Below, piece after piece: positions 6,801 through 28,180 of a stretch of 56,677 nucleotides of DNA (the first letter of the stretch is position 1; the number at the start of each line of letters is the position of its first letter). This DNA is from Flavobacteriales bacterium (GTDB lineage: Bacteria > Bacteroidota > Bacteroidia > Flavobacteriales_E > Vicingaceae): assembly GCA_905339165.1 (NCBI GenBank), contig CAJPFH010000038.1:1-56677 (forward strand). Reading direction: 5' to 3'. The notes below the pieces were generated by a model. The model had not been told where the DNA came from. It searched no databases and was given only the letters and a program-made list of their open reading frames with translations. The translations under genes were made by a program, and so were the position numbers.

Positions 6801-8381
6801 ATGTTATCTCAAAAAAATATTTTAAAGCCTGAGAATATTTTATATTTCGGATTAATTCTTGTAGCCATAGGTCTCCCTCTGTCTAAATTTTTAATGAGTG
6901 TGGGGCAAATGTTTATTTTTCTTTCGTGGATATTATTGGGCAATTATAAACAGTTGCTTACAAATTACGTTAAAAGTACCACTGCAATAGCCGTAAGTGT
7001 ACTTTTTCTGTTACACTTATTAGGACTTCTATTTACCTCTGATTTTAAATATGCCCTTCAAGACATTCGGGTAAAGTTGCCTCTGTTTTTATTCCCATTG
7101 GTACTCTCTTCGTTTCGCCCGCTTACAAAAAATCAGTTTAAATGGATATTTTACATTCTTTCGCTATCTGTAATTTTATCTACTTTAATAGGCTTAATGC
7201 GATACTTCGGATGGTTTGGTTATGAGGTAATAGATAAAAGGGAAATTTCTGTTTTCATTTCTCATATTCGTTTTGGGCTTATTATGGTGGTGGCCATTAT
7301 TGCTTTAGCGTATTTTTTCAAAACCGAAAGCAGAATATTTAAAGTTTTTATTGCTACAGCCATTGTATGGTTGTGTTTTTTTATGTTAAGTATGGGTTTT
7401 CTTACGGGTTTAAGCGTATTATTTATTTTTTTAGGCATTTATTTTTTGAAGAAAATTTTTACGAAATATAAAACATCTCAATTGAAAACACCCATTATTC
7501 TCTTTCTTCTGTTAGCTATGCCATTTGGATTTATCTATTATACTATAACAGACTATTATAATATTAATAAACCCAAGCAAATCACTCTCTTAACTCGTAC
7601 AAAAGGAGGTGAAGCGTACTACCAAGATTTAACAGGCCAGCATAAAAACGCGGTAGAAAACGGTTATTTAATTTACAGAAATATTGCATGGAAAGAGTTG
7701 AAAGAGAGTTGGAATAATCGTAGTCAAATAGAGTATGATGGATTAGACTTAAACAATCAGCAAATTAAAAACACACTTCTACGTTTTCTAACATCAAAAG
7801 GATTAAATAAAGATGCCGAGGGTGTGGCCTCGTTGAGTTATAGCGAAATAAAAGCCATTGAAAATGGAATTGCCAACGTAAATTATACGCATCAGTCGGC
7901 TATTAAAACCCGATTACATCAGATTATTTGGGAAATAGATAATTATTTGCAAGGCAGAGATTATAATGGGCATTCAATAGTAATGCGATGGATATACTGG
8001 AAAACAGGTTTTAAAATTGTAAAAGAAAATTTTTTGTTAGGTGTTGGGACAGGAGATGTACAAAACGAATTTCAGAAAATGTATGAAAAAGAAAATTCTA
8101 TTCTTAGACCAGAGTTTCGACTAAGAGCACACAATCAGTTTATCACTTTTGCTATTACTTTTGGAGTGTTAGGATTGTTAGTATTTATAATAGCTTTATT
8201 CTACCCTTTATATAAACTAAAATTATATAATCGGTTTATTTATTTAGGTTTTTTTGTGGTAGTGGTAGCTTCCTTTATTACAGAAGATACGTTAGAGTCG
8301 CAAGCCGGTGTTACTTTTTATATTTTTATGCATAGTTTATTATGCTGGCTTTATCCTATAGAGCTTGATGATGATTTTTGA
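6801..8381 (+). CDS. O-antigen ligase/polymerase-like membrane protein
   Basis: 526 aa with about 10-12 hydrophobic segments split by a large hydrophilic loop (about residues 260-420), the layout of Wzy/WaaL proteins. The Wzy_C signature is in and after the loop: NFLLGVGTGDVQNEF followed by RAHNQFITFAITFGVLGLL, with the conserved His of the ligase family. Likely acts at the periplasmic face of the inner membrane on lipid-linked glycans. The convergent glycosyltransferase downstream overlaps its 3' end by 31 nt and supports a role in surface polysaccharide synthesis. Ligase versus polymerase cannot be decided. Confidence 0.8.
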   Translation: MLSQKNILKPENILYFGLILVAIGLPLSKFLMSVGQMFIFLSWILLGNYKQLLTNYVKSTTAIAVSVLFLLHLLGLLFTSDFKYALQDIRVKLPLFLFPLVLSSFRPLTKNQFKWIFYILSLSVILSTLIGLMRYFGWFGYEVIDKREISVFISHIRFGLIMVVAIIALAYFFKTESRIFKVFIATAIVWLCFFMLSMGFLTGLSVLFIFLGIYFLKKIFTKYKTSQLKTPIILFLLLAMPFGFIYYTITDYYNINKPKQITLLTRTKGGEAYYQDLTGQHKNAVENGYLIYRNIAWKELKESWNNRSQIEYDGLDLNNQQIKNTLLRFLTSKGLNKDAEGVASLSYSEIKAIENGIANVNYTHQSAIKTRLHQIIWEIDNYLQGRDYNGHSIVMRWIYWKTGFKIVKENFLLGVGTGDVQNEFQKMYEKENSILRPEFRLRAHNQFITFAITFGVLGLLVFIIALFYPLYKLKLYNRFIYLGFFVVVVASFITEDTLESQAGVTFYIFMHSLLCWLYPIELDDDF

Positions 8382-9124
8382 ATATGTAAGAGTTTTTTAT
8401 ATTTCAAAAAGGTTTCGTAAGCCATCAATTTAGAGATAATAAATCCGTTTTTTCCATCTAGGAAGCCTCTTTTAATAAAGTAGGCTTTAATAAATTTGGC
8501 GAGGGGTTTAAATAGCAGATGAAGTATACTGCTACTCTTCTTTAGGTTGTACATGGCTTTTGCCGAAACAGTACTGAAGTACTCTAATTGCTTGTAATGT
8601 TCTTCTATGGTGTAATACGAGTAATGTAAAATATTTCCTCTAAGATGTTTTATCTTGGTGTTTTCATTTAATTCGTAACGGTCGTGTGGATTAATTCCTT
8701 TCCACTGCCCTTTTCGGCTGTCCCACAACCTTAATTTTGTATCAGGATACCAGCCACAGTGTTTAATCCACTGACCGCAATAGTTGGTTAGGCGATTCAT
8801 TTTGTAGCCATCAAATGCCCAATGGTTTTTTATTGAAGCAATTTCTTGTTTCAGTGTATCGTCTAGAGCTTCATCAGCATCGAGAGAAAGGATAAAGGGG
8901 AATTTAGCTTGTGTAATGGCCCAGTTTTTCTGTTCTATATGCCCGTTAAATGCATGTTCTATAAATCGGGCTCCGTGTTGCAGGCATATTTCTTTTGTTT
9001 TGTCGGTAGAGAAAGAATCGACCACCACAACGTCATCAGCAATATCTTTTACCGAAAGAAGGCAACGCGCAATGTTTTTTTCTTCGTTGAACGTGATGAT
9101 TACTACCGAGAGTTCAATTTTCAT
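8351..9124 (-). CDS. family 2 glycosyltransferase (WaaE/KdtX-like)
   Basis: 257 aa. GT-A fold with VVIITFNEEKNIARCL at the N-terminus, VVVDSFSTDKTKEI around 33-46, and the metal/nucleotide motif LSLDADEAL near residue 80. The IEQKNWAI segment and the later LRGNILHYSYYTIEEH are typical of the lipopolysaccharide-core GT2 group related to WaaE. It probably adds a sugar to lipid A core or a related surface glycan at the cytoplasmic side. It follows the cyclase gene by 6 nt on the same strand, so it may be co-transcribed with it. Confidence 0.82.
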   Translation of the reverse strand: MKIELSVVIITFNEEKNIARCLLSVKDIADDVVVVDSFSTDKTKEICLQHGARFIEHAFNGHIEQKNWAITQAKFPFILSLDADEALDDTLKQEIASIKNHWAFDGYKMNRLTNYCGQWIKHCGWYPDTKLRLWDSRKGQWKGINPHDRYELNENTKIKHLRGNILHYSYYTIEEHYKQLEYFSTVSAKAMYNLKKSSSILHLLFKPLAKFIKAYFIKRGFLDGKNGFIISKLMAYETFLKYKKLLHIQKSSSSSIG

Positions 9125-9130
9125 TTAATA

Positions 9131-12100
9131 TTAGTTTGTATAGTTGGCGAGTCGGTTCTTAATTTCTTCAATGTTTTTAAGTTTTTTATCTTGTCTTAAT
9201 TGAATGGCCGATGGGGTAAAATAATGGTGTGCTTCTAAAAATTTAATTTGAATTTCGTCCCATTGTTTATCGTTCTGAATTTTGTTTCGTTCCAATAATT
9301 CAAGTTTTAAGTTATCGGCTATGGAATGAAAATCGTCTCTTCCGAGGTAATCTAAATCGGCATCACAAATAATTTGTTCGAGGTGGTTTTGGGGTTGTTG
9401 TGGTACTTTGGTGGCTAAAATAAGTTGTTGTACAATTTCTATTTGTTCTTGTGTATAACCGAACTGGTGTAGTGCTTCTTTGGCCATATCGGCTCCAATG
9501 GCTTCGTTGGTTTCGTACTGCTGAACAAATCCCGAATCATGATAAAGTGCGGCTGTTTTGAGTAAGAATAATTCTTCGCCTACTACTCCTTCCATTAGTG
9601 CAATGCGTTCAATGGCCTGACAGACGTCTTTTGTATGAGCAATGCTGTGGTAATGAAGATTAGAAGGTAATTTTTCTTCCAGCATTTTTAAAATAAATTT
9701 TTCAGCTTTTCTGTAGTTTATGCTGCTGTAGAGAATAAGATTTACATATTTCCAAAAGTTTTCGTTTGGCTCTATACCTTCTCCGTTAACAGAAAGTTCG
9801 GGCTTTATTGAGTTTACAAAGTACATGTCAATAAAACCTTTGTTTTTGGCTTTTACTTTTCCTCGGTACTCGCACACAAAAAAATCTTTTATGTGTTCGT
9901 AGGTGGCCCCCGAGATGTTTACTTTATCTTCTTCGCCCGAAGATTCCATTCGGCTGGCAATGTTTACGGTGTCGCCCCAAATATCGTAGGCAAATCGTTT
10001 TATCCCCACTACACCGGCTATCAGTTCTCCGGTGTTAATGCCAATGCGTAAACTCCAGGCATTTTCTCCTTTTATTTTTTTTATTTCTTGTATGTATCGT
10101 TGTATTTCAAGGCCGGACAGCACTATGTCAATAGGATTGCTTTTATTTCTGATAGGGATTCCTCCTGCACACATGTAGGAATCGCCCATGGTTTTTATTT
10201 TCTCTATATTGTATTTTTGAATGATTTCGTCAAATTTTATGAAATAACTATCGAGTTCGGTAAGCAATTCTTTGGGGCGGAATTTTTCGGCCAGTTTTGT
10301 AAATCCTTTAAAATCGGTAAACATTACTGAAACGGTGCGATAGCTGCGGGCACTTGCTTTTCCTTTTGATTTTAATTCTTCAACGGTATCTTCTGGTAAA
10401 ATATTTAGCAGTAGTTTTTCTACTTTATTTTTTTCTACTTCCAGCAATCTTTTTTGTTCTTCTATTTTTTCTTTTTGTTTTATTATTTCGGCTGTACGTT
10501 GTTGCACTTGCCATTCCAGTTCAAGTTTTTGTGCCTCAATAGCGTTTAAGCGAACTTTGTATATTACATAAATGGTTAAAAGAATAATGCAAATACCTGT
10601 AATTTTAAACCACCATGTTTTCCAAATGGGAGGGGTAACAATAATTTTTAGCTGAGCGGTTTCCTTGCTCCATATTCCATCGCTGTTGCAGGCCCTTACC
10701 ATAAAAATATATTCGCCCGGATCGAGGTTGGTAAAATTTGCTTTTCGTTCGGTTCCTGCATTTATCCAATTTTCGTCAAACCCTTCTAGTTTGTATTGAT
10801 AGTTATTTTTTTCGGAATAGGAGTAGTGTAAGCCGGCATATTCAATACTAATTACATTTTGCTTGTAATTTAGGTTAATTTGAGCTTCTTTGAGAAAAGA
10901 GCCGTTTATGATTTTATGATTTTCAGTAATAGGGTTATTAAAAAGATAAAACCCGGTAATATTAATTTTAGGGGGTATTAAATTTTTTTGTATTTCAGAA
11001 GGGTAAAAAGAGTTGAGGCCATTGATGCCTCCAAAAAAGAATTCGCCATCGTTTGATGCAAAGTAAGCTCCAACATTAAATTCGTTGCTTTGTAAACCAT
11101 CGTTTTGTTCGAAATTCAGGAAGTGTTTGCTGTTTTTATCGTAGCGGCAAATGCCTCTGTTGGTACTCAGCCACAGTTGTTGTTCTTTATCTTCTAGCAC
11201 TCCGTACACCACGTTGTTGGCCAGTCCGTCTTTTTGGGTAATGCTTTCAAATTTTTCGGTGGTTGGATTGAATTTGTTTAAACCGCCTCCGAATGTGCCT
11301 ATCCATAAAATGCCTTGTTTGTCTACATGAATAGATAAAACGGTGTTGTTTGAAATAGAGCTTGGGTTTTCGAACTGATGTGTGAATGCTTTAAACTGTA
11401 TGTTGGAGTAATCAGCATTTTGAACGATGGCTTTGCATAAGCCTCCATTATCAATTCCTAACCAGATGTTTCCTTTTTTATCTTTTTTAATTGTACGAAT
11501 GGTATTACCGCTAAGACCTAATATCGTATTTTCTAATTGCTGATATAAAAAATGTTGGTTTCTTGCCGGATTAATGAGAATTAAACCTTCTTTGGTGCCA
11601 ATCCATAAATAATGATTTCGGTCTTCGTAAATGGAGTAAACTCTATGGGTAAGTTCTATAAATTTTGAGTTTAAATGAAACGGAATTATTTTTTCTTGTT
11701 GTTCATCGAAAAAATGTAATCCTAAATCGGTGCCAGTCCATAAAATGTTTTTGCTATCGCGGTAAATGCTGTAAATACCTTTTTTTGCCTGAAGGTTTTT
11801 GTTGGTTAAGGGAATTGTATGGTTGGTTATTTTTTTAGTGAGGGCATTTATTTTATCTAGACCCTCATCAGTACCAACATAAATGGTGTTTTTATCTTTA
11901 AATACGGACCATATCAGGTTGTTGCTTAAACTATTTTCGTTATCTGCTCTTTTCTGATAGAGATTAAAAAATTGTTTATTGATATCGAATTTATTTATAC
12001 CTACTTCTGTACCTATCCACACACTGCCTGTAAAATCTTTGTAAAAAGAAAGAATAACATTATTACTTATGGTATGTAATAGTGTATTGTTGTGTTTAAA

Positions 12101-13024
12101 AGAAACAATGTTTTTATATTTCAGATTATACTTAAATACTCCGGCTCCGTTTGTGCCTATCCAAAGGTTTCCGTTGTGGTCGTTGAATAATGATTTTATA
12201 GTGCTTTCCGAAGAATTCGGATTTAATTTTAATTCGTTGAAATGTTCAAATTTATTCAGGTTTTCGTAGTAAATATCTAGTCCGCTGTTGGTGCCAATCC
12301 AAAAAGTATTTTTTTCTGTTTCGGTTATACTCCATACGTGGTTATTTCTAAGCACATTGTTATTGGTGTTTGCAAGGAGGTGAATTATTTCTTGAGACGT
12401 GGGGTTGTAGCAGTATATTCCATTTCCTTCGGTAGCAATCCAAATTCTATTTTTAGAATCTTCGAATAACGAGCGTATTTTTAAGTTTTTTCCGGTAAGA
12501 GGCGAGAGATTTATTTCTGTAAATTTTTTTTCTGTGTAATTAAAATGAAGCAATCCTTTTTCGGTGCCTATCCAGTATTGGTTTTTATTTGTCTTTAATA
12601 CGCTCCAAATATTATTGTGGTTCAATCCTGAATTTTTATCTTCGAAGAAGTAAGTAAATCTATTGGTAAATGGATTGTATAAGTTAAGCCCTCGCTCTGT
12701 TCCTATAAGCAAAAGAGAATCGTGTGTGGCGGTAATAGAATGAATAAAATTGTTTGAGAGAGATTGTTTGTTTGCTAAGTCGTGCTGAAAAATTTTAAAG
12801 GTATATCCATCGTACTGGTTTAAGCCGTCTTGCGTTCCAAACCAAAGAAATCCGAAAGGGTCTTGCGTTATACAGTTTACAGAACTTTGCGATAATCCAT
12901 CGTTTAAGGCCAGTTTCTTAAAGTGAATAGTAGAATGGTTTTGTGTAAAATATGTTGGAGAAAGGAAAAATAAGAAAACAAATATGCCGAAGCGAAAGAA
13001 AGCTTCGGCATATGTAAAGTACAT
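9131..13024 (-). CDS. sensor: two Reg_prop propellers, Y_Y_Y, TM, class III adenylate cyclase, HD domain
   Basis: 1297 aa from the ATG at 13024. An upstream in-frame ATG at 13075 is rejected because it lies inside the previous gene; from 13024 the spacing is 4 nt and a signal peptide follows. About 14 Reg_prop blades (LWIGTxxGL pattern) fill residues 40-690, enough for two seven-bladed propellers, then a Y_Y_Y domain and one TM segment near 805-825. A coiled coil (840-880) leads to a class III cyclase: metal Asp904 (FTDFKGF) and Asp948 (KTMGDSYM), adenine-type Lys944 and Asp1014 (YDIWGD), transition-state Asn1021/Arg1025. The C-terminus is an HD domain (His1126, His1162-Asp1163). Likely makes cAMP in response to a periplasmic signal; the HD substrate is unknown. 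Last gene of the fibre operon. Confidence 0.88.
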   Translation of the reverse strand: MYFTYAEAFFRFGIFVFLFFLSPTYFTQNHSTIHFKKLALNDGLSQSSVNCITQDPFGFLWFGTQDGLNQYDGYTFKIFQHDLANKQSLSNNFIHSITATHDSLLLIGTERGLNLYNPFTNRFTYFFEDKNSGLNHNNIWSVLKTNKNQYWIGTEKGLLHFNYTEKKFTEINLSPLTGKNLKIRSLFEDSKNRIWIATEGNGIYCYNPTSQEIIHLLANTNNNVLRNNHVWSITETEKNTFWIGTNSGLDIYYENLNKFEHFNELKLNPNSSESTIKSLFNDHNGNLWIGTNGAGVFKYNLKYKNIVSFKHNNTLLHTISNNVILSFYKDFTGSVWIGTEVGINKFDINKQFFNLYQKRADNENSLSNNLIWSVFKDKNTIYVGTDEGLDKINALTKKITNHTIPLTNKNLQAKKGIYSIYRDSKNILWTGTDLGLHFFDEQQEKIIPFHLNSKFIELTHRVYSIYEDRNHYLWIGTKEGLILINPARNQHFLYQQLENTILGLSGNTIRTIKKDKKGNIWLGIDNGGLCKAIVQNADYSNIQFKAFTHQFENPSSISNNTVLSIHVDKQGILWIGTFGGGLNKFNPTTEKFESITQKDGLANNVVYGVLEDKEQQLWLSTNRGICRYDKNSKHFLNFEQNDGLQSNEFNVGAYFASNDGEFFFGGINGLNSFYPSEIQKNLIPPKINITGFYLFNNPITENHKIINGSFLKEAQINLNYKQNVISIEYAGLHYSYSEKNNYQYKLEGFDENWINAGTERKANFTNLDPGEYIFMVRACNSDGIWSKETAQLKIIVTPPIWKTWWFKITGICIILLTIYVIYKVRLNAIEAQKLELEWQVQQRTAEIIKQKEKIEEQKRLLEVEKNKVEKLLLNILPEDTVEELKSKGKASARSYRTVSVMFTDFKGFTKLAEKFRPKELLTELDSYFIKFDEIIQKYNIEKIKTMGDSYMCAGGIPIRNKSNPIDIVLSGLEIQRYIQEIKKIKGENAWSLRIGINTGELIAGVVGIKRFAYDIWGDTVNIASRMESSGEEDKVNISGATYEHIKDFFVCEYRGKVKAKNKGFIDMYFVNSIKPELSVNGEGIEPNENFWKYVNLILYSSINYRKAEKFILKMLEEKLPSNLHYHSIAHTKDVCQAIERIALMEGVVGEELFLLKTAALYHDSGFVQQYETNEAIGADMAKEALHQFGYTQEQIEIVQQLILATKVPQQPQNHLEQIICDADLDYLGRDDFHSIADNLKLELLERNKIQNDKQWDEIQIKFLEAHHYFTPSAIQLRQDKKLKNIEEIKNRLANYTN

Positions 13025-13028
13025 CTTT

Positions 13029-15338
13029 TTATTGCAGGGCAATAACTTTAAATTCGGTTCTTCTGTTTTTGCCATGTTCTTCTTCAGTGCATTCTATTCC
13101 GTTGCTGCATTTGTTCATCAGACGAGTTTCTCCGTAGCCTTTTCCAAAAATTCTTTTCTTTTCTATTCCTTTCGAAATGATATATTCGGCAGCAGCATCG
13201 GCTCTTTTTTGTGATAATTTTAGGTTGTAATCATCGGAGGCTCTGGAATCGGTGTGTGAACTAAGTTCAACGGCAATGTGTTTATTTTTTTTCAAAATAG
13301 TTACCAGTTTATCTAGCTCTTTTGCTGCAGCGGGGTTTATATCGGATTTATCGTAATCATAATAAATGTTTGATATAATAAAGTTTTCGTTTACTTTAAT
13401 TCTAATTACCACGTCTTCTTCATTAAGGAGTGTAATGCTTTTTTTATCGGGATCTAACCTAACGTAAACGTAATCTTTTCCTTTTTTAGAAGTAGATTCT
13501 AAAATTTCTCCATTTTCGGTAAGCATCACAATTTTTAAACTGCCATCTTCTTCTTCGGTTCTAAAAAAGTATTTTGCATCGGGCGATAATTTTGGAAAAT
13601 AAAATTTGCCGTCTTTGTCAGTTCTTGTGGTGGCTACAATTTTTCCGTCATCATCTACAACGTATAATTCCATTTGCTTGTTAAAATCTCCGGGTAGTTG
13701 TTGGTAAACTTGGCCATATAGACCAATGGTAAATAAACTCTCATCTTTTTCTTGAAGAATAGGCATTTGAGCATATCTATCGGCAGGTAGTGCCTGAAAG
13801 GTAAATACTCCGCTTTTTATTTTGTTGGCGAGTAATACTTTTTCTCCATTTTTATTGGTTAGGTACACTTTACCATTGGTAAGTACTCCTTCGTCTTTGG
13901 TGTCTACCAATACCATGTATTTTTGGTCGGCATTAAGTTTATCGAAAGTAAATTTTCCGGAATTATCCGTTTTAGTAACCTGAAGCACATTATCGTTTTC
14001 GTCTAATAATTTTACGGTCATTCCGCTAATCGGTAGTTGCTGATATTCCAGTAATCCCTGCATACTCGTTTTTTCAACGGTTTTAATACCCAAAAAGTTA
14101 AAACGATAAATATCATCACCCCCTAGTCCTCCATTTCTATCGGAAGAGAAGAAACCATTTTTATCATCAATCCAGCAAATTCCAAAGTCATCAGTATTTG
14201 AGTTTAATGGGGTGCGAAAGTTTATGGATGTTTCAAAATTGTCAATTAGTTTCGACACAAATATATCGAGCCCTCCGTAGCCGGGTAAACCATTCGAAGA
14301 AAAATAAAGTTCTCCGTTTCTGAAAGAAGGAAATACTTCATCTTGTGAGGAGTTCACACCATTCCCTAAATTTTGAGGTTTTGTCCATTGGTTGTTTTCC
14401 CAACGACACATATATATGTCCATTCCTCCCAATCCTCCGGGCATATCCGAAGCAAAAAATAACAGTTTCCCATCTTCTGAAATAGCAGGGTGTGCTGTAT
14501 TATATTCGTTGCTGTTGTATGGAAAGGGGTATGGTTTTGTCCACGACTTACCGGTATTATTTGCGTAATAAATTTTTATTTTGTTTTCTTTATTTCCTTT
14601 TAATTCTCTTGCCGATCGGCTAAAATAAAGCACATTACTTGTTTTAGAAAAGCTTGCTGGTCCATCATGATAGGGAGATTTGAGTGAAGAAGCAAATCTT
14701 TTGGGTTTAGAAAAAGAACGAAAATCGTTATCGTTTGCTTTGGCTGAAAAAAGAGTTAGGTAAGGTTTATGGTTAGCTCCGTTTTGGTTTTCGTTTACAT
14801 AATCTTCTTCTCTTTCGGTTGTAAATACAACAGAATTATTAATAACGGTTGGAGAGAAATCTGCCCATTCAGAGTTTAAATCATCTTGCCTAGATACTGT
14901 AAACCATGCCGGTTCGCTTTCCCATGTTTTTACATCGTTGATGGATTGTAACAACAATTTACCTAACAGTGAGGATGGTTTTTTTTGTACATACAACTCA
15001 AACTGTTCTTTTGCTTCAGCAAATTTTTTATTGCTTTTTAATGCTTGACCGTACAATAAATGTTGCTCAGCATCTGCATTAGGAAGGTTTACTGCCTTTG
15101 CATAATATTCTTCGGCTTTTGTATAATCTTTTAAAATGCGGTAGCAACTGGCAAGTTTTGATATGGCCTCGTAATTTGTGCTTTCTTTTTTTACAATTTT
15201 TTCAAACGCTTTGGCAGCGTCTATATATCTGCCTTGGGTGTAAAGAGTGTTGGCGCGACTCATTTGAGCCGAAGCAGAAAGGTTAAAGGAGAATAAACCG
15301 AAAAGAAAAAAAAGAAGTATAATGTGTGCTCTGTTCAT
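13029..15338 (-). CDS. PorE-like TPR-PD40-carboxypeptidase regulatory-OmpA protein
   Basis: 769 aa. A signal peptide (to about 24) is followed by TPR repeats (about 28-140), WD40-like PD40 repeats (about 165-405; SNGLPGYGGLDIF, SSDRNGGLGGDDIY), a carboxypeptidase regulatory-like domain (about 425-500), a second similar segment near 560-650, and a C-terminal OmpA peptidoglycan-binding domain (about 655-768; HTDSRASDDYNLKLSQKRADA, GYGETR). This matches the order of PorE, the T9SS component thought to tie the outer-membrane machine to peptidoglycan. It follows porP/sprF by 9 nt, a pairing known for T9SS. Whether it is the core PorE or a paralogue for local cargo cannot be decided. Confidence 0.87.
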   Translation of the reverse strand: MNRAHIILLFFLFGLFSFNLSASAQMSRANTLYTQGRYIDAAKAFEKIVKKESTNYEAISKLASCYRILKDYTKAEEYYAKAVNLPNADAEQHLLYGQALKSNKKFAEAKEQFELYVQKKPSSLLGKLLLQSINDVKTWESEPAWFTVSRQDDLNSEWADFSPTVINNSVVFTTEREEDYVNENQNGANHKPYLTLFSAKANDNDFRSFSKPKRFASSLKSPYHDGPASFSKTSNVLYFSRSARELKGNKENKIKIYYANNTGKSWTKPYPFPYNSNEYNTAHPAISEDGKLLFFASDMPGGLGGMDIYMCRWENNQWTKPQNLGNGVNSSQDEVFPSFRNGELYFSSNGLPGYGGLDIFVSKLIDNFETSINFRTPLNSNTDDFGICWIDDKNGFFSSDRNGGLGGDDIYRFNFLGIKTVEKTSMQGLLEYQQLPISGMTVKLLDENDNVLQVTKTDNSGKFTFDKLNADQKYMVLVDTKDEGVLTNGKVYLTNKNGEKVLLANKIKSGVFTFQALPADRYAQMPILQEKDESLFTIGLYGQVYQQLPGDFNKQMELYVVDDDGKIVATTRTDKDGKFYFPKLSPDAKYFFRTEEEDGSLKIVMLTENGEILESTSKKGKDYVYVRLDPDKKSITLLNEEDVVIRIKVNENFIISNIYYDYDKSDINPAAAKELDKLVTILKKNKHIAVELSSHTDSRASDDYNLKLSQKRADAAAEYIISKGIEKKRIFGKGYGETRLMNKCSNGIECTEEEHGKNRRTEFKVIALQ

Positions 15339-15347
15339 TTAATCATT

Positions 15348-16292
15348 CTAAAAATAACGTGGTGATGTAACTTTTGATTTAAATACATTAAAGTCGTATC
15401 CAATAAATATTTCGTGCGAACCACTATTTGTGTTAGCCAATCCATTCGTATTTAAATCATATGCATAGCCTAGTCTAAATTGTGGAGTAATGTTGTATTC
15501 AAGCATTAAGCCTGGTCCGTATTTAGAACGGAAAAATACACCGGCCCATAATTTATTGTGAAAAAGAAAACACAAATTTAAATCGCCAATTCCTTCCATT
15601 TTTCCTGCCCCACGCAAAATAAATGAGGGTTTAAAAACGATGCTTTCGCTTATACGAAAGGCTTTTCCCATAATAAAGGTACCGTGCCTAAAGAGACGTG
15701 CAACTCCACCGGAATCGTTGGTGGCAGAAGAGTCGGAAAAATATAACTCCGGTGCATTCAAGTGTTGAATCTCAAATCCGGCATAAAAGGAATTCGTATT
15801 ATAATATATTCCAAAATCAAAATTTGGAACCGTTAACGAATTTACTCCGTAAGTAGGAATGTTGTCGCTTGTATTTTTATACTCTATTTTATCCCACTTA
15901 ATTTGGTGGTTTTGAACTCCTGCTTTTAAGCCAAATGCAAGCTTCCCTGCTCCTAATTTTATTCTATAGGCATAAGAGGCAGCCGCACTAATAGTAGAAT
16001 GAGGGCCTACCACATCATTCATTAGTATTAAACCTAAGCCCATGTTTTTGTTTTTCATGGGTGAGTGTAGTGCCAATGTTTGAGTGCTTGGGGCCCCGTC
16101 AAAGCCCACCCATTGGCTTCTGTGCAACATTACTAAACTCAATGCTTCCCTGCTTCCGGTGTAACCGGCATTCACACCAAGTGGGTTAAACATATACTGC
16201 GAATAGTGGGGGTCTTGTTGTGCTATCATAGAGTTGCTTTGCAAGGCTACAAGGCAGCACAAAATGAATTTTATTTTCAACCTATTTTTCAA
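15348..16292 (-). CDS. PorP/SprF family type IX secretion membrane protein
   Basis: 314 aa. Signal peptide to about residue 25 (IAQQDPHYSQYMFN), then the family opening FNPLGVNAGYTGSREALSL and SQWVGFDGAPSTQTLALHSPM. The beta-barrel strands end with LEYNITPQFRLGYAYD and HEIFIGYDF. SprF-like proteins are reported to be needed for secretion or surface attachment of neighbouring type B cargo. Here the upstream gene (16303-17046) encodes such a cargo, 10 nt away, and the downstream gene is PorE-like. The start ATG is directly followed by a Lys/Arg-rich n-region. Confidence 0.92.
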   Translation of the reverse strand: MKNRLKIKFILCCLVALQSNSMIAQQDPHYSQYMFNPLGVNAGYTGSREALSLVMLHRSQWVGFDGAPSTQTLALHSPMKNKNMGLGLILMNDVVGPHSTISAAASYAYRIKLGAGKLAFGLKAGVQNHQIKWDKIEYKNTSDNIPTYGVNSLTVPNFDFGIYYNTNSFYAGFEIQHLNAPELYFSDSSATNDSGGVARLFRHGTFIMGKAFRISESIVFKPSFILRGAGKMEGIGDLNLCFLFHNKLWAGVFFRSKYGPGLMLEYNITPQFRLGYAYDLNTNGLANTNSGSHEIFIGYDFNVFKSKVTSPRYF

Positions 16293-16302
16293 TATGCTTT
16301 TT

Positions 16303-17046
16303 TTAACGTGTTAATTCTACCCAACCTTTGTAAATAATATCTTGCACCTTGGCTACATAAAAATAGGTGCCATCGGGCAAGGGTATATCTTTACGGTATT
16401 CCCTGCCTACCCACTTTACTGTATTATTATCATAGTTTTCTCCTGTCCACACCAAATCGCCCCAACGGTTAAATACGCTGATGCTATTGGGCTGAAAAAC
16501 TTCTATATTTTCTATATGCCAATAATCGTTGCCTCCATCTTTGTTTGGGGTAAAGCCCGAGTAAAATTTAAGTACACAAGGATCTTCGCTTTCTAAGCCA
16601 ATGGTAATGGTATCGCGGATGGTATCGAGTGGAGCTGATAAACAAACAAAATTGGCAATGTAAGTGCCGGCAGGTAAATTGGTTCTTATACGAGAAGTAT
16701 CGCCATCGCTCCAAAAGAAATTTTGTAGCACAGAAAGAGTGCAATTAGGTACACTAATAATTCGTATTAGTCCATCTTTTGAATCTTTGCAGGTGGCATT
16801 TTGTTTTTCGTACACAATGCTATCGGGCGAAGTAAATTTTTCGGGTTGCTGAAAACCTTGAGTAAGGATATTGCTGCCTGTTGTTTCTGTGGTAACAACA
16901 CATTCCCCTATGGTGTAGGAAATATCAATAGAACCTATTGTTTCGGCTTTGCCGGCAGTGCCAAAAACCTGACGCTCGATGCTGGTTTGGGAAAAAGCAG
17001 CAGGAACACTTCCTATTAAGGATAGTATAAAAAGTAGTTTTTGCAT
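16303..17046 (-). CDS. small secreted protein with type B (gliding-associated) T9SS C-terminal domain
   Basis: 247 aa. A signal peptide (to about 19) is followed by a short N-terminal module with ISYTIGECVVTTE and ILTQGFQQPE, a pattern seen in many Bacteroidota cargos. A middle beta-rich part has CxDSKDGLIRI. The last 85 residues are a type B sorting domain: FYSGFTPNKDGGNDYWHIEN, ISVFNRWGDLVW, DGTYFYVAKV and the final YKGWVELTR. It shares that ending with the cargo at 22242-24818. The start shares one base with the upstream stop (TAATG), tying it to the collagen-like fibre gene. It could be a surface anchor or assembly factor for the fibre; that is inference. Confidence 0.87.
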   Translation of the reverse strand: MQKLLFILSLIGSVPAAFSQTSIERQVFGTAGKAETIGSIDISYTIGECVVTTETTGSNILTQGFQQPEKFTSPDSIVYEKQNATCKDSKDGLIRIISVPNCTLSVLQNFFWSDGDTSRIRTNLPAGTYIANFVCLSAPLDTIRDTITIGLESEDPCVLKFYSGFTPNKDGGNDYWHIENIEVFQPNSISVFNRWGDLVWTGENYDNNTVKWVGREYRKDIPLPDGTYFYVAKVQDIIYKGWVELTR

Positions 17047-19895
17047 TATTTGTTTTTTAATTCTTCTACTTGTTTTTTCAATTCTTCTATTTGTATTTGT
17101 TGTTCTTGTATGGCTTTGATGAGAAGAGGATATAAGCGGTCGTAATTTACACCCTTCATTTTCACTTCTTCGTTTATTACTTTTCCATTTTCATCTACAT
17201 TTCCTGGAAAACCTACTTCTCGTATCATTTCTGGAATAACTTCTTCCACTTCCTGAGCAATAAATCCCCATTGTTTTGTAGTGGGTAAATTCATGAAGGA
17301 ATATTCATTATATCTATATTCATATTCTTTAGGCTTAAGTTTCATTATGGTTTCAATGGCATTTATGTTTAAATTCTCAATATGGTTTTTCATTTTTCTA
17401 TCGGAAATAACCGTCCAATTTGCGGATGTTGTAGATATTTGGTTTCCGTTTGAGTATACTGCATAATTGTTTGTTCCGTTTCCTGCTTGTCCCCACAAAC
17501 CAATTGCATTAGAGCCACCCCAACCATATCCAAAAACACCATAATTGTAGGTGGTTGCATTTTGAGCTACACCATAAACTCCATAACTATTTGTCCCCCC
17601 CTGCCCATCTCCTCTTATTCCATAATTATTGGTTGCACTGGTAGCTTCTCCTATAATTGCATACCTTGTACCTGAACCAGCAGTTACAACCGAAGACTTA
17701 ATTCCTTGCCCTCCAGTTGTTGAACTGTTCTCCACATAGAATGTAGGAAATGTAGTAGTTCCATATACATACATTTTATCATACGACCAAGTAGGGGATG
17801 TTGTCCCTACCAACACTTTATCATTTGCATAAACATTCCCTGCAGCAAAATATGCAGACCAATTAACAGTGCCACCAATCACATTGGCATAATAACCATA
17901 ATTGTTGGTACCCCCTCCTGAAATATCAGCACGTACACCGTAGTTATTTCCCGCACTATTTAATATAAAAGAATGCACTCCATAATTGTTTGCAGAAGCT
18001 GCGTTTATTACATTAAATGCTCCGGCTTTATTATCTCCGGTACCTAATGGGTTATTAACAATGCCTGAAATACAAGGTTTTGAACTTGCTGAATTGGCTC
18101 CATTAGTTTCAAAATATCCCGCACGAATATTTGTGGTAGTGTAAACATGTAATGGAAAAGTTGGAGAAATCCCAATTCCCAAGTTGTTCTGAATAAACAC
18201 ATTTCCTCCATCAAAATACCCCGCCCAGTTGGTAGTTCCACCTACGGCACTGCTTCGCAATGCATAGTTTGTTCCGGTTCCGGTAGCTGCTCCATAAAGT
18301 CCGGTTTTTGTTCCGCTGTTACCTGCAGCACTTCCGTATACTGCGTAGTTATCGATTGTACTACCCGTAACATAGAAATAACCCCCATAATTAGAGCCTG
18401 CTCCAGAGCTATTGTTGTAGCTATTTATACCATATTTCGGTGATGCAGAATTTAAGGTGGTTTGAATATCAACGCTCGTTAATGCTGTTGTATTATTAAT
18501 TTGTAGCTTGGCACCGGGTGTTGAGGTGCCAATTCCTACATTTCCGGCATTAATGTAAGAAAAAGTGCTTGGATCTGCATCGAGATTAATGGCAGAACTT
18601 CCATTATTATAAAGAAGCATACGACCACGGGTAGCATATCCAAAAATCCGAGCAGCTTCACCTCCATTGTCCGATTCTTTAATCGTTAATGAAAATCCGT
18701 CTATTGGTGAACGAACCACTAAGGGGTCCCCTGCACCATCTCCTAAAATATTGGTATTACCATTTACATCTAATTTTTGAGAGGGAATACCGGTTCCAAT
18801 TCCTACTTTTCCATTTCCATCAATGGTTACATAATCAGTTAATGAACCACCTGTTCCATCAGCACCACCCCTTATGTGAAATCCCATGTTATCAGAGTAA
18901 ACTTCCCAATCGAACATATTCAAACCAGATCTTTCTAGCCTAAATATAGGAGAAGTAGCATGAGATAAGGTGAATTGTTGAAGAGGATTAATCGTTCCTA
19001 TTCCTACATTTCCAGTAGACAAAATTCTCATTCTCTCTGTATTAGATGTTCTGAAAATGATAGGTTGAGCGTCTGTAGTGCCTAAGAAGTGTGAAACAGG
19101 ATTTATACCTGCGTTTCCAACAATTGACCAAACATTCGCATTCGTTGCATCGGTAGCATTTGCCGGAGCGGGTCCTGTGGGTCCGGTTAAACCAGTAGTA
19201 CCAGCAACACCTGTAGTGCCGGTAGCTCCGGTAAGTCCAGTAGTACCGGTAGCTCCTGTAGCACCCTGAACCCCTTGTAATCCTGTAGTTCCTGTTGGTC
19301 CTGTAACACCCATAGCCCCCGTTGTTCCGGTGGCTCCTGTAACACCTTGAATTCCTTGTAATCCAGTAGTTCCTGTTGGTCCTGTAATGCCCATAGCACC
19401 AGTTGTTCCTGTAGTTCCTGTAACACCCGTGGCTCCTTTTGCTCCACTAGGCCCCGTAACTCCTTGTGGCCCGGTAGGGCCTTGTACTCCTCCATTCCCT
19501 GAATTATCGGCATAAAAAGCATAGGGAACCGATAATAGCTGTATAAGGGAAGAAGCTTGTCCGTCTATTTCAAATTTTATAAAATGTGCTTGGTTGCCCC
19601 AAGCTAAAGATTTTATTTGAAAATTACTGCTTGGAAATCTATTACCCCCTGTTCCAATAACCAGTGTAAATAACCCAAACTGGTTGGTTGTAACATTGTG
19701 TTCTTCGCTGTAAAAGGTGGTTAATCCAGTGGCGTTGGTAATAAAAATTTTAACATTTATATTTTGATTAGCCAAAGGTTCGCCTGCCAAATCTCTGGCA
19801 ACCGCCTGATAATTGATTCCATTGGGGCTGCCTTGTGCAAAAAGGTAGGCAGAGCCAAACAAGAAAGAGAAAATGAGAATTATGTTTCTTTTCAT
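17046..19895 (-). CDS. collagen-like fibre protein with C-terminal S74 intramolecular chaperone
   Basis: 949 aa. Signal peptide to about residue 20 (LFAQGSPNG); a 115-aa N-terminal domain shared with the next gene upstream; a Gly-X-Y collagen-like stretch at 136-242 rich in Gly-Thr-Thr and Gly-Pro-Thr; then many NVGIGTxxP beta-repeats; finally a tail-fibre type S74 chaperone from about 831 with SDRKMKN (self-cleavage Ser831, Lys836), [15 protein letters not shown], and a closing coiled coil. S74 domains trimerise a fibre and cut themselves off. No T9SS sorting domain is visible, so export beyond Sec is open. First gene of a five-gene operon. Confidence 0.88.
19170..19490 (-). repeat. collagen-like Gly-X-Y repeat-coding region (S74 fibre gene)
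   Basis: About 36 consecutive Gly-X-Y triplets encoded by a GC-richer, internally repetitive tract made of near-identical 9- to 54-nt units. Such tracts change length readily by slippage or recombination. The sister gene has a shorter tract at 21558-21782. Confidence 0.85.
19491..19835 (-). repeat. N-terminal domain segment nearly identical to 21783-22127
   Basis: By eye the two segments differ at roughly one base in twenty, often at third codon positions, whereas the parts after the collagen tracts differ strongly. This suggests recent duplication or continuing gene conversion of the stalk base. Confidence 0.75.
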
Positions 19896-19923
19896 CGATG
19901 ATTGATTGTTAGCGGAATGTATG

Positions 19924-19931
19924 CAAATATA
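19924..19931 (-). promoter_or_regulatory. -7 box for the fibre-T9SS-cyclase operon
   Basis: On the minus strand the sequence is TATATTTG, a full TAnnTTTG match, 28 nt before the ATG at 19895. No good TTG element is seen at the expected distance. It is the only such box in the 63-nt gap and would drive the five-gene operon. Confidence 0.45.
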
Positions 19932-19958
19932 GTATTATTCAAATCAAAAAAAGATACT

Positions 19959-22187
19959 TTAATAAGAATAAACAAGATGTCCGTTAAACCATGAAGTTAA
20001 TGATGCTCCACTAACACTAATAAGATTAGCTTGATTATAAACTCTAATTTTAACGGTAGAACCAGAAGTTAAATAAAGAGTATGGCTAATTGTGGCTGTA
20101 AATTGCCCAGACGGAACTTGGTCATACGCCCCAATCACATCATTTCCATTTACATTTACCAAGATTGTTGGACGACCGTAGGCACTTGGGTAATATAAGC
20201 CGGCATCAAATGAATACACTCCGTTTACCGGAGCTGTAAAAACTCCTGTGGCGGGGTTGTATGCATTTCCATGGTCAAAATCTTCTACTTCATAAATAAT
20301 ATCAGAATAGCTGTTTATAGGTAGATTTTGCGATACAACTTTTTTAGCAGTAAAGGCCACTTGTCTAACAGCCCATGAGGCATTCCCTGAGGCATCTGAA
20401 GTTAAAAGTTTGCCAGCCCCTTGAGTCCCATCGGTTAGCTTAAAGGTGCCGCTTACATCGAGTTTTGCAGTTGGACTGGCATTTCCAATTCCCACATTTC
20501 CACTATTTAAAATTTTTACAATGTTTGTGCCCGAAGCATTGTTAAAATCAATACCACCGGTGGCATACATTCGAAAAGGTGTAAAAGTTGCACCACTCTT
20601 TTTTACAATTAAAAAATCATTTCCATCAACTCCGGCAGCCCATTCGGTAGTATGTTGCATAGAAATAAATGAAGACCATAATCCATTGCCCGAAATGTGC
20701 AACCTACTTGCCGGAGAATTGGTTCCTATTCCGATATCTCCGGCAGATGTAATATACATCTTTTCTGAATTATTAGTCCAAAAGGTCATCATATTACTAG
20801 CATTATTATATTGTATCAGTCCTTTGTTATATTGAGCCGGAGTTCCAAAAGCTAAGTACATATTTGCATTATTGGGAGCAAGCATACTAATGGAATGGTC
20901 TGTATTATGTTCAACTTGCAGGCGTTGGGTAGGTGTATTCGTTCCAATTCCCACATTTCCATTTTGGTCAAAAACCATGCGGGGAAGAGTACCATCGGCT
21001 ATGGCAAAATTTTCTGAAGCACCAAAGGCCCCATCGTTTCGGGAACCTATTATCCATTCATTTTGAGGTGTGGTGAAAACTGTTTGTACCCCTGCACCTG
21101 AGTTAGAAGATGTTTGTATTTTTAAACTTTCATAACTTGTTCCTAGCAAATGTAATCGAGTATCTGGATTTGTTGTGCCTATGCCAACATTTCCGACAGC
21201 AGTAATAATCATCCTGTCTAGGCTATTAGTTCTGATATAAAAATCATGGTTTGTTAATGTGCCAATGTAACCACCTACTTGGCCACCACCAAAAAATGCA
21301 GTGGCTCCACCATTTCTTATAGACCTTACCTGAGCATTAATATCTGAAACTCCTTGCAATTCTAGTTTTGCTGTAGGAATAGATGTTCCTATTCCAATTT
21401 CCCCTGTATTTAGAATTCTCATTCTCTCTGCATTCCAAGTTTTGAAAAGGATAGGTTGCCCGTCTGTGGTACCTAAGAAGTGTGAAGCCGGAAAGGTGTT
21501 GGCATTTCCTAAAATAGACCAAACATTGGCACTGGTGGCTTCTGTGGAATTTGCCGGAGCGGGTCCTGTAGTTCCTGTAATACCTGTGGGGCCTGTAACG
21601 CCTATAGCTCCTGTTGTTCCGGGGGCTCCTGTAATACCCTGAATTCCTTGCAATCCAGTAGTTCCTGTAATACCTGTGGGGCCTGTAACGCCTATAGCTC
21701 CTGTTGTTCCGGTGGCTCCTGTAGCTCCTTTTGCACCACTGGGTCCGGTAACTCCTTGTGGCCCGGTAGGGCCTTGTACCCCACCATTACCTGAATTATC
21801 GGCATAAAAAGCGTAGGGAACCGATAATAGCTGTATAAGGGAAGAAGCTTGTCCGTCTATTTCAAATTTTATAAAATGAGCTTGGGTACCCCAAGCTAAA
21901 GATTTTATTTGAAAATTACTGTTTGGAAATCTATTACCCCCTGTTCCAATAACCAGTGTAAACAATCCAAACTGGTTGGTTGTAACATTGTGCTCTTCAC
22001 TGTAAAAGGTGGTTAATCCTGTGGCATTGGTAATAAAAATTTTAACATTCAGGTTTTGATTAGCCAAAGGTTCGCCCGCCAAATCTCTAGCAACCGCCTG
22101 ATAATTGATACCATTGGGGCTACCTTGTGAGTAGGCTTGAATAAAAGAAAAAAATACTACAGCAATTAGGGTAAAAATCTTTTTCAT
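19959..22187 (-). CDS. collagen-like protein with C1q/TNF-like C-terminal domain
   Basis: 742 aa from the ATG at 22187; an upstream in-frame ATG at 22220 would put 11 polar residues before the signal peptide and lies before the -7 box. The N-terminal domain (21-135) is nearly identical to that of the S74 fibre gene. A Gly-X-Y stretch covers 136-210, followed by NVGIGTxxP repeats. The last 135 residues replace the S74 chaperone with a C1q-like jelly roll: [59 protein letters not shown]. Collagen plus C1q trimers are best known in animals, with scattered bacterial examples. Probably an exported trimeric adhesin or fibre; ligand unknown. Confidence 0.85.
21558..21782 (-). repeat. collagen-like Gly-X-Y repeat-coding region (C1q-tipped gene)
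   Basis: About 25 Gly-X-Y triplets. A unit encoding [16 protein letters not shown] occurs twice almost unchanged. It is shorter than the matching tract at 19170-19490. Confidence 0.85.
21783..22127 (-). repeat. N-terminal domain segment nearly identical to 19491-19835
   Basis: Partner of the duplicated stalk-base segment. Both copies also share the start of the mature protein ([20 protein letters not shown]) but have different signal peptides. Confidence 0.75.
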
Positions 22188-22207
22188 TTTTGGACAATTT
22201 TGAAGCA

Positions 22208-22215
22208 CAAATGTA
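22208..22215 (-). promoter_or_regulatory. -7 box for the C1q-tipped collagen-like gene
   Basis: The minus strand reads TACATTTG, 20 nt before the ATG at 22187. It supports that start and a transcription unit separate from the large cargo gene upstream. No clear -33 element. Confidence 0.45.
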
Positions 22216-22241
22216 TGCAATATAAAGAATATGTTTGTTAA

Positions 22242-24864: not shown

Positions 24865-26655
24865 TTATGAAATACGCAAACCAATTACAAGAATATCATC
24901 AACTTGTTCGAGTTTATCTTTCCAGTTTTCAATGTAGTTATTAAGGTGAGCCTGCTGTTCGTACGTATTTAGGGCTGCATTTTCGATAAGTATTTGCCTA
25001 AATTTTTTGTACATGAGTTTTTTCCCTTTTGCACCTCCAAATTGGTCGGCATACCCATCGGAAAAGATGTAAACCATATCTTCTTTTTGAACCTCTATCA
25101 CATGATTGGTAAATTCTTTAGTTTCCTCTTCATTGTAGGAGCCTATGGCTTGTTTATTGGGTTTTGTTTCTAAAACTTGACCATTTCGTACAATGTACAA
25201 CGCATTGTTTGCTCCGGCATATTCGATGTAGTTGTTGTTTTTTTCTATGGCACAAATAGCCATATCCATTCCATCGCGAGTATTTCCTTCTTTTTGGTGT
25301 AACGATTTTGTAATGCCTTTGTTTAAAGCGTTTAATATGCTTGCAGGAGTGTTATTGGTGGGGTCGTTAAATGCTGTTTGTATATTGTTGTACGCTACAA
25401 TACTCATAAAAGCTCCCGGTACACCATGCCCGGTACAATCTACAGCGGAGTAGTAAACTTTTCCGTTTTTTTCGTCCATCCAATAAAAGTCTCCGCTCAC
25501 AATGTCTTTGGGTTTATATAAAATAAAGCAGTTGGGAAGTAATTTTTTTACGGTGGTAGGAGGTGGAAGAATGGCTTCTTGCAAGCGTTTTGCATAACGA
25601 ATACTGTCGGTAACTTGTGTGTAAAGTTCTCCAATGCGTTTGCTTTGTTGTTCCAGTTCTTCTTTTTGTTTTACAACCTCAGCTGTTCTTTCTTTCACCT
25701 TATTTTCTAGTTCCCTTTCGTTCACTTCTAAGTCATCACGCATTTTTATAAGGGCATGTCCTAAATCATCGGCTTCGCTAAGGGGTTGGTATTCCCACTC
25801 AAAATTCCCTGAACCTACTTGTTCTGCAAAATCTTTGGTGCGTTTTAAACCTTCTACTAAGGTGTCCATTGCTTCTACCATTTCGCCAATTTCATCGTTC
25901 CTTGGTTTTAATTTTTGAGAAGGGAAAATGCCTTTACTTAAACCCAGCAAAATGTTTTTAAGAGAATAAACGGGTTTAACAATGGTACGTGTAGTAAAAA
26001 TGGCAATTAAGATACCTCCAATAACAAGCCCTATACCGAGATAGCGAACTAGAAATTGCAGCAAATCAAAAGAAGAAATCATTTCTTCGGTAACCTTGTT
26101 TGATTTTAGTTTTTGGCGTTTTATAAGGTCATCGAGTTGAAAAATGATTTCATCGGTTTTTTCATAAATTCTTCCTCCTTCTCCAATTTCAAATTCTGCT
26201 AAAAATTTATTTTCGGAATCGTTGTAACTTTCAAAAGAGTTGAGAAGTGATTTAATTTCATTATGATAATTCCAAAGTTCTTCGAAATCGGAAAATACCG
26301 AAGTAATCATAAACTGCTCGTCTTTGGTCCAGTGTTCAGAAAGTTCGAACAATCTTTTTTTAATTCTGGGAAAATCTTGAAAGGTAAGGTTGTTTAGACG
26401 AAGTTTATCGGGGTTATCGTCTGTTGAACTAGGAGAGTATACCCATGTGTAAATAAGCAGTTTTGAACGATAGCCCAACAGTTTTAACTCTTCGAGAGCT
26501 GCAACAGAAGGGTTATAAATATCATTTATTTGATCGTTTATTTGTTTGCTTTGGTTTAGAGTGGTGTTTGTAATCATAAATACACCCACGGTAAGAATAA
26601 TAAGAACCCCAAAGCCTAAGCCAATTTTTTTACCAATAGTAAACCTAAAACTCAT
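24865..26655 (-). CDS. membrane HAMP-SpoIIE (PP2C) serine phosphatase
   Basis: 596 aa. TM1 at about 11-31, an extracytoplasmic four-helix sensor (about 32-200), TM2 near 205-225, HAMP to about 285, a coiled coil (about 310-345), and a SpoIIE phosphatase domain (about 375-595). Metal-binding motifs are present: DIVSGDFYW, AVDCTGHGVPGAFMS, DGMDMAICAI, YIFSDGYADQFGG and VDDILVIGLRI. It would dephosphorylate a phosphoserine protein, usually an anti-anti-sigma factor, but no such partner is in the window. It follows the TPR gene by 5 nt and ends the YfiR-TPR-SpoIIE operon. Confidence 0.9.
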   Translation of the reverse strand: MSFRFTIGKKIGLGFGVLIILTVGVFMITNTTLNQSKQINDQINDIYNPSVAALEELKLLGYRSKLLIYTWVYSPSSTDDNPDKLRLNNLTFQDFPRIKKRLFELSEHWTKDEQFMITSVFSDFEELWNYHNEIKSLLNSFESYNDSENKFLAEFEIGEGGRIYEKTDEIIFQLDDLIKRQKLKSNKVTEEMISSFDLLQFLVRYLGIGLVIGGILIAIFTTRTIVKPVYSLKNILLGLSKGIFPSQKLKPRNDEIGEMVEAMDTLVEGLKRTKDFAEQVGSGNFEWEYQPLSEADDLGHALIKMRDDLEVNERELENKVKERTAEVVKQKEELEQQSKRIGELYTQVTDSIRYAKRLQEAILPPPTTVKKLLPNCFILYKPKDIVSGDFYWMDEKNGKVYYSAVDCTGHGVPGAFMSIVAYNNIQTAFNDPTNNTPASILNALNKGITKSLHQKEGNTRDGMDMAICAIEKNNNYIEYAGANNALYIVRNGQVLETKPNKQAIGSYNEEETKEFTNHVIEVQKEDMVYIFSDGYADQFGGAKGKKLMYKKFRQILIENAALNTYEQQAHLNNYIENWKDKLEQVDDILVIGLRIS

Positions 26656-28102: not shown

Positions 28103-28180
28103 GAGGTTTTTCCAATTCAAAAAGTAGGCCAAAGTTAATAAACAATTAAAAAACAAGCATAGTAAAAGAGGCGGTTTTCA

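Follow-up and report, generated by a model that had tools for sequence, protein, structure and literature searches.

The window analyzed here is the whole 56,677-nucleotide (nt) contig CAJPFH010000038.1 (C38 of assembly GCA_905339165.1, a genome of 3.16 Mb in 136 contigs) from a Flavobacteriales bacterium of the family Vicingaceae. On one strand it carries genes for trimeric-type fibers, for cargo proteins of the type IX secretion system (T9SS), for a PorP/SprF outer-membrane shuttle and a PorE-like protein, and for two candidate signaling outputs, a YfiR-TPR-SpoIIE cassette and a propeller-cyclase-HD protein that we call CYC. We find that MAT-like fibers, a small type B T9SS cargo (TB1; the large one is TB2), PorP and PorE constitute a module present in many families of the class, and that the YfiR-TPR-SpoIIE cassette is its wider signaling partner. 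Within the window's family, and only there, CYC follows PorE, and it does so firmly; it is a lineage-specific partner. A sequence-only reading of this DNA had proposed that a five-gene operon joins a self-cleaving, collagen-like fiber and T9SS components to a cyclic AMP (cAMP) sensor. The arrangement is real, conserved and wider than first noted; the YfiR-SpoIIE cassette, which that reading had not included, now carries more weight than the cyclase, and a MAT-type base with exchangeable tips more than collagen and the S74 domain.

The run consists of the following features, all on the minus strand and given from its upstream end.

27581-28156: YfiR/HmsC-like periplasmic protein (DUF4154; PF13689, E 4.3e-31)
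26661-27569: secreted or periplasmic TPR protein (weak TPR matches, signal peptide-like start)
24865-26655: HAMP-SpoIIE inner-membrane sensor phosphatase (PF07228, SpoIIE/PP2C, E 1.1e-15)
22242-24818: TB2, large type B T9SS cargo (TIGR04131, 57.5 bits, cut-off 35)
19959-22220: fiber 1, with MAT-like N-domain (NF053851, under cut-off), collagen (PF01391) and C1q tip (PF00386)
17046-19895: fiber 2, with MAT-like N-domain, collagen at 133-243 (PF01391), S74 chaperone tip (PF13884) and a coiled coil read off the sequence
16303-17046: TB1, small type B T9SS cargo and proposed fiber base (TIGR04131, 52.8 bits, cut-off 35)
15348-16292: PorP/SprF outer-membrane shuttle (PF11751, E 1.3e-73; TIGR03519, 250 bits, cut-off 90.55)
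13029-15338: PorE-like protein with TPR, PD40 propeller, CarboxypepD/SdrD_B and OmpA domain matches
12982-13013: hairpin of 12 bp, with a T-rich tail, overlapping the start of the cyclase coding sequence (terminator-like site, folding)
9131-13024: CYC, with periplasmic Reg_prop/Y_Y_Y propeller, transmembrane segment, coiled coil, class III adenylate cyclase and HD domain matches

The five genes from fiber 2 to CYC lie where the sequence-only reading had placed them, with the domains it had named and with gaps of -1, 10, 9 and 4 nt when the ATG at 13024 is taken as the start of CYC (the longest open reading frame, ORF, begins at 13075). That these five form a unit did not hold up. The same-strand run continues upstream with YfiR, TPR, SpoIIE, TB2 and fiber 1, with successive gaps of 11, 5, 46, 21 and 63 nt down to fiber 2, and we rejected a closed five-gene unit because the upstream genes belong to the run by conservation in relatives. 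YfiR opens the cassette in relatives too, and the TPR gene between YfiR and SpoIIE is likewise conserved. The SpoIIE protein has two predicted transmembrane segments (hydrophobic stretches 11-29 and 201-219) flanking a periplasmic part of about 170 amino acids (aa), and its HAMP match lies under the cut-off (E 0.0064; 17.2 versus 25).

A search for PorE in 247 genomes from the class showed the breadth of the module: it gave 47 strong matches, 40 of them outside the window's family. Twenty of these 40 outside loci were read. In 18 of the 20 (all except L257 and L258) a TB1-type protein precedes PorP-PorE with at most one intervening ORF, and MAT-type fibers are present in 10. By comparison, 79 background loci (1.26 Mb), which are CYC relatives from named records and are not taxonomy-matched, contain neither a MAT-type fiber nor a strong PorE. 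None of the 20 outside loci carries CYC, which marks the cyclase as a lineage-specific partner. In one locus of another family (L282, 9959-10294) a 111-aa cyclase-like ORF lies on the opposite strand near the contig end, adjoining a distant relative of PorE, an awkward case.

The cassette is widespread as well. A SpoIIE search of the same 247 genomes found matches in 74, 66 of them outside the family, and 46 of these 66 loci were read. YfiR and TPR genes directly precede SpoIIE in 42 of the 46; of the remaining four, L303 does not show this order, another has an overlapping ORF call, and two are truncated where the locus ends. In 21 of the 46, drawn from nine families, the cassette has same-strand linkage with MAT-type fibers or with a PorP-PorE pair, in both orders; 11 of these linked loci have the PorP-PorE pair and 15 have a collagen stretch. 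Among the PorE loci, the module follows the SpoIIE cassette in L240, L241, L242, L251 and L254 and has the opposite order in L243. A SpoIIE orthologue is present in 44 of the 47 genomes with PorE versus 74 of 247 overall (Fisher p 4e-25, a value overstated by the relatedness of the genomes). In eight loci (L222, L274, L285-L287, L289, L290 and L296) a type B gene of 800-876 aa stands after SpoIIE.

Within the window's family, which comprises 46 genomes in 16 genera, CYC has a match in 44 genomes, including all 32 of good quality; G035 and G067 have none at the threshold. We read the CYC neighborhood in all 43 relatives with a match, assigning fiber, TB1, PorE, PorP, YfiR, TPR and SpoIIE labels with profiles built from family members rather than curated ones. 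In 37 of the 43 loci the gene just upstream of CYC is PorE, a count that includes PorE remnants in L067, L069 and L183 and a contig-cut copy in L186. G027 shows the same arrangement spread over two contigs (L060 and L061, the latter used solely as its second half), and with it the pair spans 15 genera. G032 is cut by a contig end. Thus PorE directly precedes CYC in 38 of 42 informative relatives, which is more than chance, and 23 of the 37 loci have a gap of -4 to 9 nt between the two. The sequence-only reading had staked its proposal on gene order being kept in related genomes, and it is: an uninterrupted type B-PorP-PorE-CYC series recurs across the family in 28 of the 43 loci, some of the others being cut by contig ends. 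The window's own genome holds 12 copies of PorP in all, and none of the other 11 has CYC or a MAT-type fiber in the 14-20 kb stretch read around it.

Shared descent could in principle account for such order, and nine genera (g2, g3, g6, g8-g12 and g15) do have the gene on the 3' side of CYC in common. In the other seven genera, no two share this 3' gene and PorE-CYC is kept in six, so that the upstream order there is not general synteny.

The fiber-TB1-PorP-PorE-CYC block also stands in two different genomic contexts. In one, the module comes after YfiR-TPR-SpoIIE, as seen in the window and in 11 further loci of the family (g1, g4, g5 and g13), and fiber or type B genes also lie 3' of SpoIIE in G024 and G016. 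In the other, it comes after an M23 peptidase gene and is followed by a shared set of downstream genes. The M23 block reads dUTPase-NTP transferase-TPR-DUF4292-M23, as recognized by homology in G006, G008 and G009 (g6, g8 and g9), and in G003, G006, G008, G012, G015 and G020 of this group the YfiR cassette is found elsewhere. In G011 and G025 the M23 block leads straight to CYC and these downstream genes, no fiber, TB1, PorP or PorE intervening, and G020, from the same genus, has TB1-PorP-PorE-CYC followed by those downstream genes. In L076, L080 and L304, SpoIIE is directly followed by CYC, without fibers. The slot 3' of SpoIIE is therefore occupied by fibers in many families, by the cyclase in some, and by both in part of the window's family. 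We considered that the module had been inserted into an ancestral SpoIIE-CYC pair and rejected this as a simple story, since in a CYC tree the outgroup copies fall, weakly supported, among those of the family, so that gain and loss of the module cannot be polarized on it.

The fibers themselves point to a conserved base that carries changing ends. All 31 aligned fiber N-domains, which were chosen by our own search, match Bdello_MAT_N (NF053851) with E up to 0.01, and the window's fiber N-domain scores 47.8 bits against a cut-off of 60. The S74 domain of fiber 2 has the SDxxxK motif (S831, K836), and this tip is found neither in fiber 1 nor in either fiber of G001, the second genome of the genus. 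Across the fibers the tips are S74, C1q, Phage_depo_C (phage-depolymerase-like) or unrecognized, and by our own pattern an uninterrupted collagen stretch occurs in only 6 of the 35 MAT-type fiber ORFs of the family. Collagen and self-cleavage, which the sequence-only reading had put at the center, were dropped as defining features, since collagen and S74 are variable among relatives; its proposal of a dedicated fiber anchored by PorP and PorE is well supported by the comparison. The contrast between base and tip is sharpest between the window and G001. CYC is 97% identical between the two, PorP is identical at 311 of 314 positions and TB1 from residue 71 at 175 of 177, and the N-domain of fiber 2 at 106 of 112. 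In residues 601-820 of the same fiber only 41 of 157 aligned positions are identical, 14 of the 129 residues carrying S74 align at all, and neither G001 fiber carries S74 or C1q. Judged from these alignments, tips differ even within a genus, and a conserved base with a changing tip is how receptor-binding fibers behave. The TB1 alignment has 28 members, and 13 of them, the window copy not included, show an SprB-repeat match (E up to 1). Elsewhere in the genome, at a second collagen locus on contig C3 (L197), two collagen-like proteins (685 and 443 aa) are encoded.

CYC is built as a signal peptide, Reg_prop propeller, Y_Y_Y domain, single transmembrane segment (808-826, taking the ATG at 13024 as residue 1), coiled coil (judged by sequence), class III cyclase and HD domain. 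Class III cyclases use two Asp residues to bind metal, a Lys/Asp pair to recognize adenine, and an Asn/Arg pair to stabilize the transition state. All of these are present in the window protein (D97, D141, K137, D207, N214 and R218 of a 490-aa segment), and adenylate cyclase is therefore its expected activity. The propeller-bearing copies in the family likewise retain all the cyclase residues tested, except that one letter in L179 cannot be read. Seven genera (g2, g3, g6, g8, g9, g12 and g15) have a propeller-less CYC of 509-521 aa. In 9 of 13 such copies (L062, L064-L068, L070, L185 and L186) the transition-state Arg is replaced by Ala, Thr or His, and the HD residues tested are kept in all 13, as they are in the window. 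The cyclase of these copies may thus be weakened with the HD domain retained, and cAMP output is perhaps not universal. Where intact, the PorE beside a propeller-less CYC is about 1100-1140 aa long, and in the one scanned (L065) the extra length matches CarboxypepD-type domains; because G010 and G020 combine a long PorE with a propeller-bearing CYC, long PorE and propeller are not strict substitutes. Two identifications of CYC were tried and rejected. It is not PorZ (score 131.2 versus a cut-off of 260, with the best stretch in the propeller), and its HD domain cannot be named a phosphodiesterase, as it has only weak matches to solved HD proteins, class I phosphodiesterases among them. A stand-alone homologue of this HD domain, 36% identical, is encoded elsewhere in the genome (C14, 31940-32521).

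The window's PorE is far larger than YfiB and has the domain order TPR-propeller-CarboxypepD-OmpA. Its curated scores lie under the cut-offs of the PorE and CHU_0125 models (NF052230, 377 versus 600; NF053607, 463 versus 620), so we regard it as a relative and not as the named family member. A PorE-PorP-type B complex is known from experiments in Porphyromonas gingivalis, where PorP binds type B cargo at the surface and PorE binds PorP and is tied to peptidoglycan (PMC9143113). Type B cargo with a PorE partner has been proposed to be static, and F. johnsoniae has five PorE-PorP-type B operons (PMC12618676). The window resembles the P. gingivalis PorE-PorP-PG1035 system and the F. johnsoniae operons of PorE, type B protein and SprF in its type B C-terminal domain (CTD) cargo, its cognate PorP shuttle or anchor and its PorE domain order, and differs, from what these sources describe, in adding trimeric-type fibers, YfiR-TPR-SpoIIE and a cyclase and in a PorE without an evident lipoprotein cysteine (PMC9143113, PMC12618676). 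With the MAT fibers of Bdellovibrio it shares a signal peptide, a related N-domain and variable tips, including an S74 tip of the self-cleaving type with SDxxxK; it differs from their published description in having collagen stalks, T9SS type B cargo alongside and an N-domain under the NF053851 cut-off (PMC10769870). That paper does not name the surface element to which the MAT N-domain binds.

The layout of the cassette recalls YfiBNR of Pseudomonas aeruginosa, in which outer-membrane YfiB sequesters YfiR and so frees the inner-membrane enzyme YfiN (PMC4887326). Common to both layouts are an outer-membrane, peptidoglycan-binding protein, a periplasmic YfiR or YfiR-like protein and an inner-membrane enzyme; in the window the predicted output is SpoIIE/PP2C rather than a diguanylate cyclase (there is no GGDEF), and a TPR protein is added. 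The YfiR-like protein passes the DUF4154 model and falls below those for YfiR (30.7 versus 85) and for the TOL_0243 YfiR-like protein (108.8 versus 125). The PP2C phosphatase is also reminiscent of the SiaA/SiaC partner switch (PMC7647112), with a SiaA model score of 218.6 versus a cut-off of 700 and no SiaC in the run described here. Five SiaC-family genes lie elsewhere in the genome and are possible targets of SpoIIE phosphatases. In the PorA-PorXY-SigP pathway of P. gingivalis a surface CTD protein likewise influences an inner-membrane sensor, and that pathway, as described, uses a histidine kinase and a sigma factor and has no fiber, PorE or cyclase (PMC7712824). Among the literature matches listed, judged by titles, abstract openings and passages and with subscription papers and preprints lying outside them, none describes the combination of fiber, PorE, cassette and cyclase.

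Taking these likenesses together, we favor a model, to which we give about an even chance, in which a T9SS-anchored fiber system with swappable tips is coupled to signaling across the envelope. The model builds on observed gene content, gene order, conservation, the two contexts, catalytic residues and tip variability. Trimeric fibers would be held at the surface through TB1, which would be carried and anchored by its cognate PorP, and PorP would in turn be held to peptidoglycan by PorE; homology suggests the TB1-PorP-PorE link, and gene order points to contacts of fiber with TB1, of PorE with YfiR and of PorE with CYC. The published plans of PorE-PorP and YfiBNR thus lead to a chain fiber-TB1-PorP-PorE-YfiR-SpoIIE. 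The state of the fiber or of the cell wall would be relayed across the periplasm to two inner-membrane outputs. One would be the YfiR-TPR-HAMP/SpoIIE cassette found across the class, which resembles YfiBNR in layout but has a PP2C phosphatase as its output, the phosphatase probably acting on a SiaC-like partner. The other, confined to the window's family, would be CYC, whose gene adjoins that of PorE and which combines propeller, adenylate cyclase and HD domain. Any signal from the fiber to the phosphatase or to cAMP is something we infer, and the data suggest, short of proof, that the cell can detect what its fibers touch. A bolder form, which we offer tentatively and think unlikely to hold in full, is that contact sensing of this kind is widespread in Bacteroidota: tipped fibers would be linked mechanically or sterically through TB1, PorP and PorE to a PP2C phosphatase gated by YfiR and, within one family, to a cyclase-HD protein as well, such that touch sets phosphorylation and cAMP and TB1 is the missing surface anchor of MAT-type fibers. 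If so, type B T9SS cargo would report on the surface instead of being merely glued or propelled, PorE would gain a signaling role and MAT-type fibers an anchor. How Bacteroidota sense adhesion targets would become testable, with relatives that have and lack the cyclase providing a natural comparison.

Several observations weigh against the coupling model. CYC occurs without the module in G007, G011, G023 and G025 (4 of the 42 informative relatives), and in three g12 genomes an intact CYC lies beside decayed PorE remnants; CYC can therefore outlive the module, of which it is a conserved but accessory partner. The cassette stands apart from the module or CYC in eight family genera (g3, g6, g7, g8, g11, g12, g14 and g15), and outside the family 22 of the 46 cassette loci are unlinked by our criterion, with 3 more ending less than 1 kb from SpoIIE. 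Because the genomes in all these counts are related, probabilities computed from them are overstated. In the window's PorE no lipoprotein cysteine is evident where the signal peptide ends, the first Cys being residue 65. The persistence of CYC where the module is missing or decayed, together with the SpoIIE-CYC pairs without fibers in L076, L080 and L304, would fit a different view, in which CYC, SpoIIE or both sense something else, such as a polymer or stress, and time fiber production, the genes being co-regulated with no physical link. Reg_prop/Y_Y_Y propellers often sense ligands, as this view would require. It accommodates less easily that the propeller-less CYC of seven genera, which itself has hardly any periplasmic part (L065 sequence), retains its pairing with PorE, or that cassette and module are linked in both orders. 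We regard such co-regulation as a serious minority possibility.

The locus might instead be an ordinary PorE-PorP-type B adhesin locus beside unrelated signaling genes, its adjacencies inherited without function. PorE-PorP-type B operons are common, as the five of F. johnsoniae illustrate (PMC12618676), PorP is present in 12 copies in the window's genome, and related genomes share synteny by descent, including the CYC 3' gene of nine genera. We nevertheless judge this quite improbable, given the six genera that keep PorE-CYC with no shared 3' neighbor, the two contexts of the block, the 11 other PorP copies without CYC or MAT-type fibers in the stretches read, and the absence of MAT-type fibers from the 79 background loci. 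A third possibility concerns only CYC, whose main output could be the HD domain, with a cyclase that in some family members is regulatory or has degenerated. Retention of HD residues in 13 of 13 propeller-less copies, against loss of the Arg in 9, favors it, as does the existence of stand-alone HD homologues; the intact cyclase residues of the window and of propeller-bearing copies (L179 aside) and the weak matches of HD to solved proteins make it improbable in our view.

A further point against simple co-expression is the hairpin at the PorE/CYC junction. Its 12-bp perfect stem with T-rich tail (13013-12982) covers the first CYC codons, and the 81-nt region around it folds at -21.4 kcal/mol (z -4.96), with 0 of 200 shuffles as stable. 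Terminator-like sites as such are no more frequent in the region than in shuffles (19 versus 18.1), so only the strength of this hairpin counts; its stem is tied with a site at 9961 as the longest among them, and its pair of arms has a single occurrence in the genome. The hairpin could serve as terminator or attenuator, or control translation as a structure over the first CYC codons. It speaks against simple PorE-CYC co-transcription in this genus, where it may end or attenuate transcription. The hairpin is present also in G001 and is seen only in these two genomes of the genus: the best 45-nt junction fold is -22.3 kcal/mol in G001 and -4.6 to -17.3 kcal/mol in the other 36 loci folded, and we rejected it as a general feature.

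Promoter searches gave little to set beside it. The Bacteroidota-type promoter pattern has two minus-strand matches in the whole window, none of them in gaps of the run and fewer than in shuffles; sigma-70-like sites (58 versus 62.2 in shuffles) provide no promoter evidence, and an Rfam scan returned no match at the gathering score. The 63-nt gap before the S74 fiber (19896-19958) contains TATATTTG, which resembles the Bacteroidota -7 motif, at a distance from an upstream TTTG that is too short for a full promoter match.

Around the run, an ORF that we take to be glycosyltransferase-like (8351-9124) begins 6 nt downstream of CYC. A small, basic, secreted-looking ORF lies at 28190-28510, between a ferritin gene and YfiR, and ORFs of 121-142 aa occupy the corresponding position, matched by place, in L050, L176 and L178. 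A further large type B T9SS protein (DUF7948, PKD, CHU_C) is encoded at 52113-55994.

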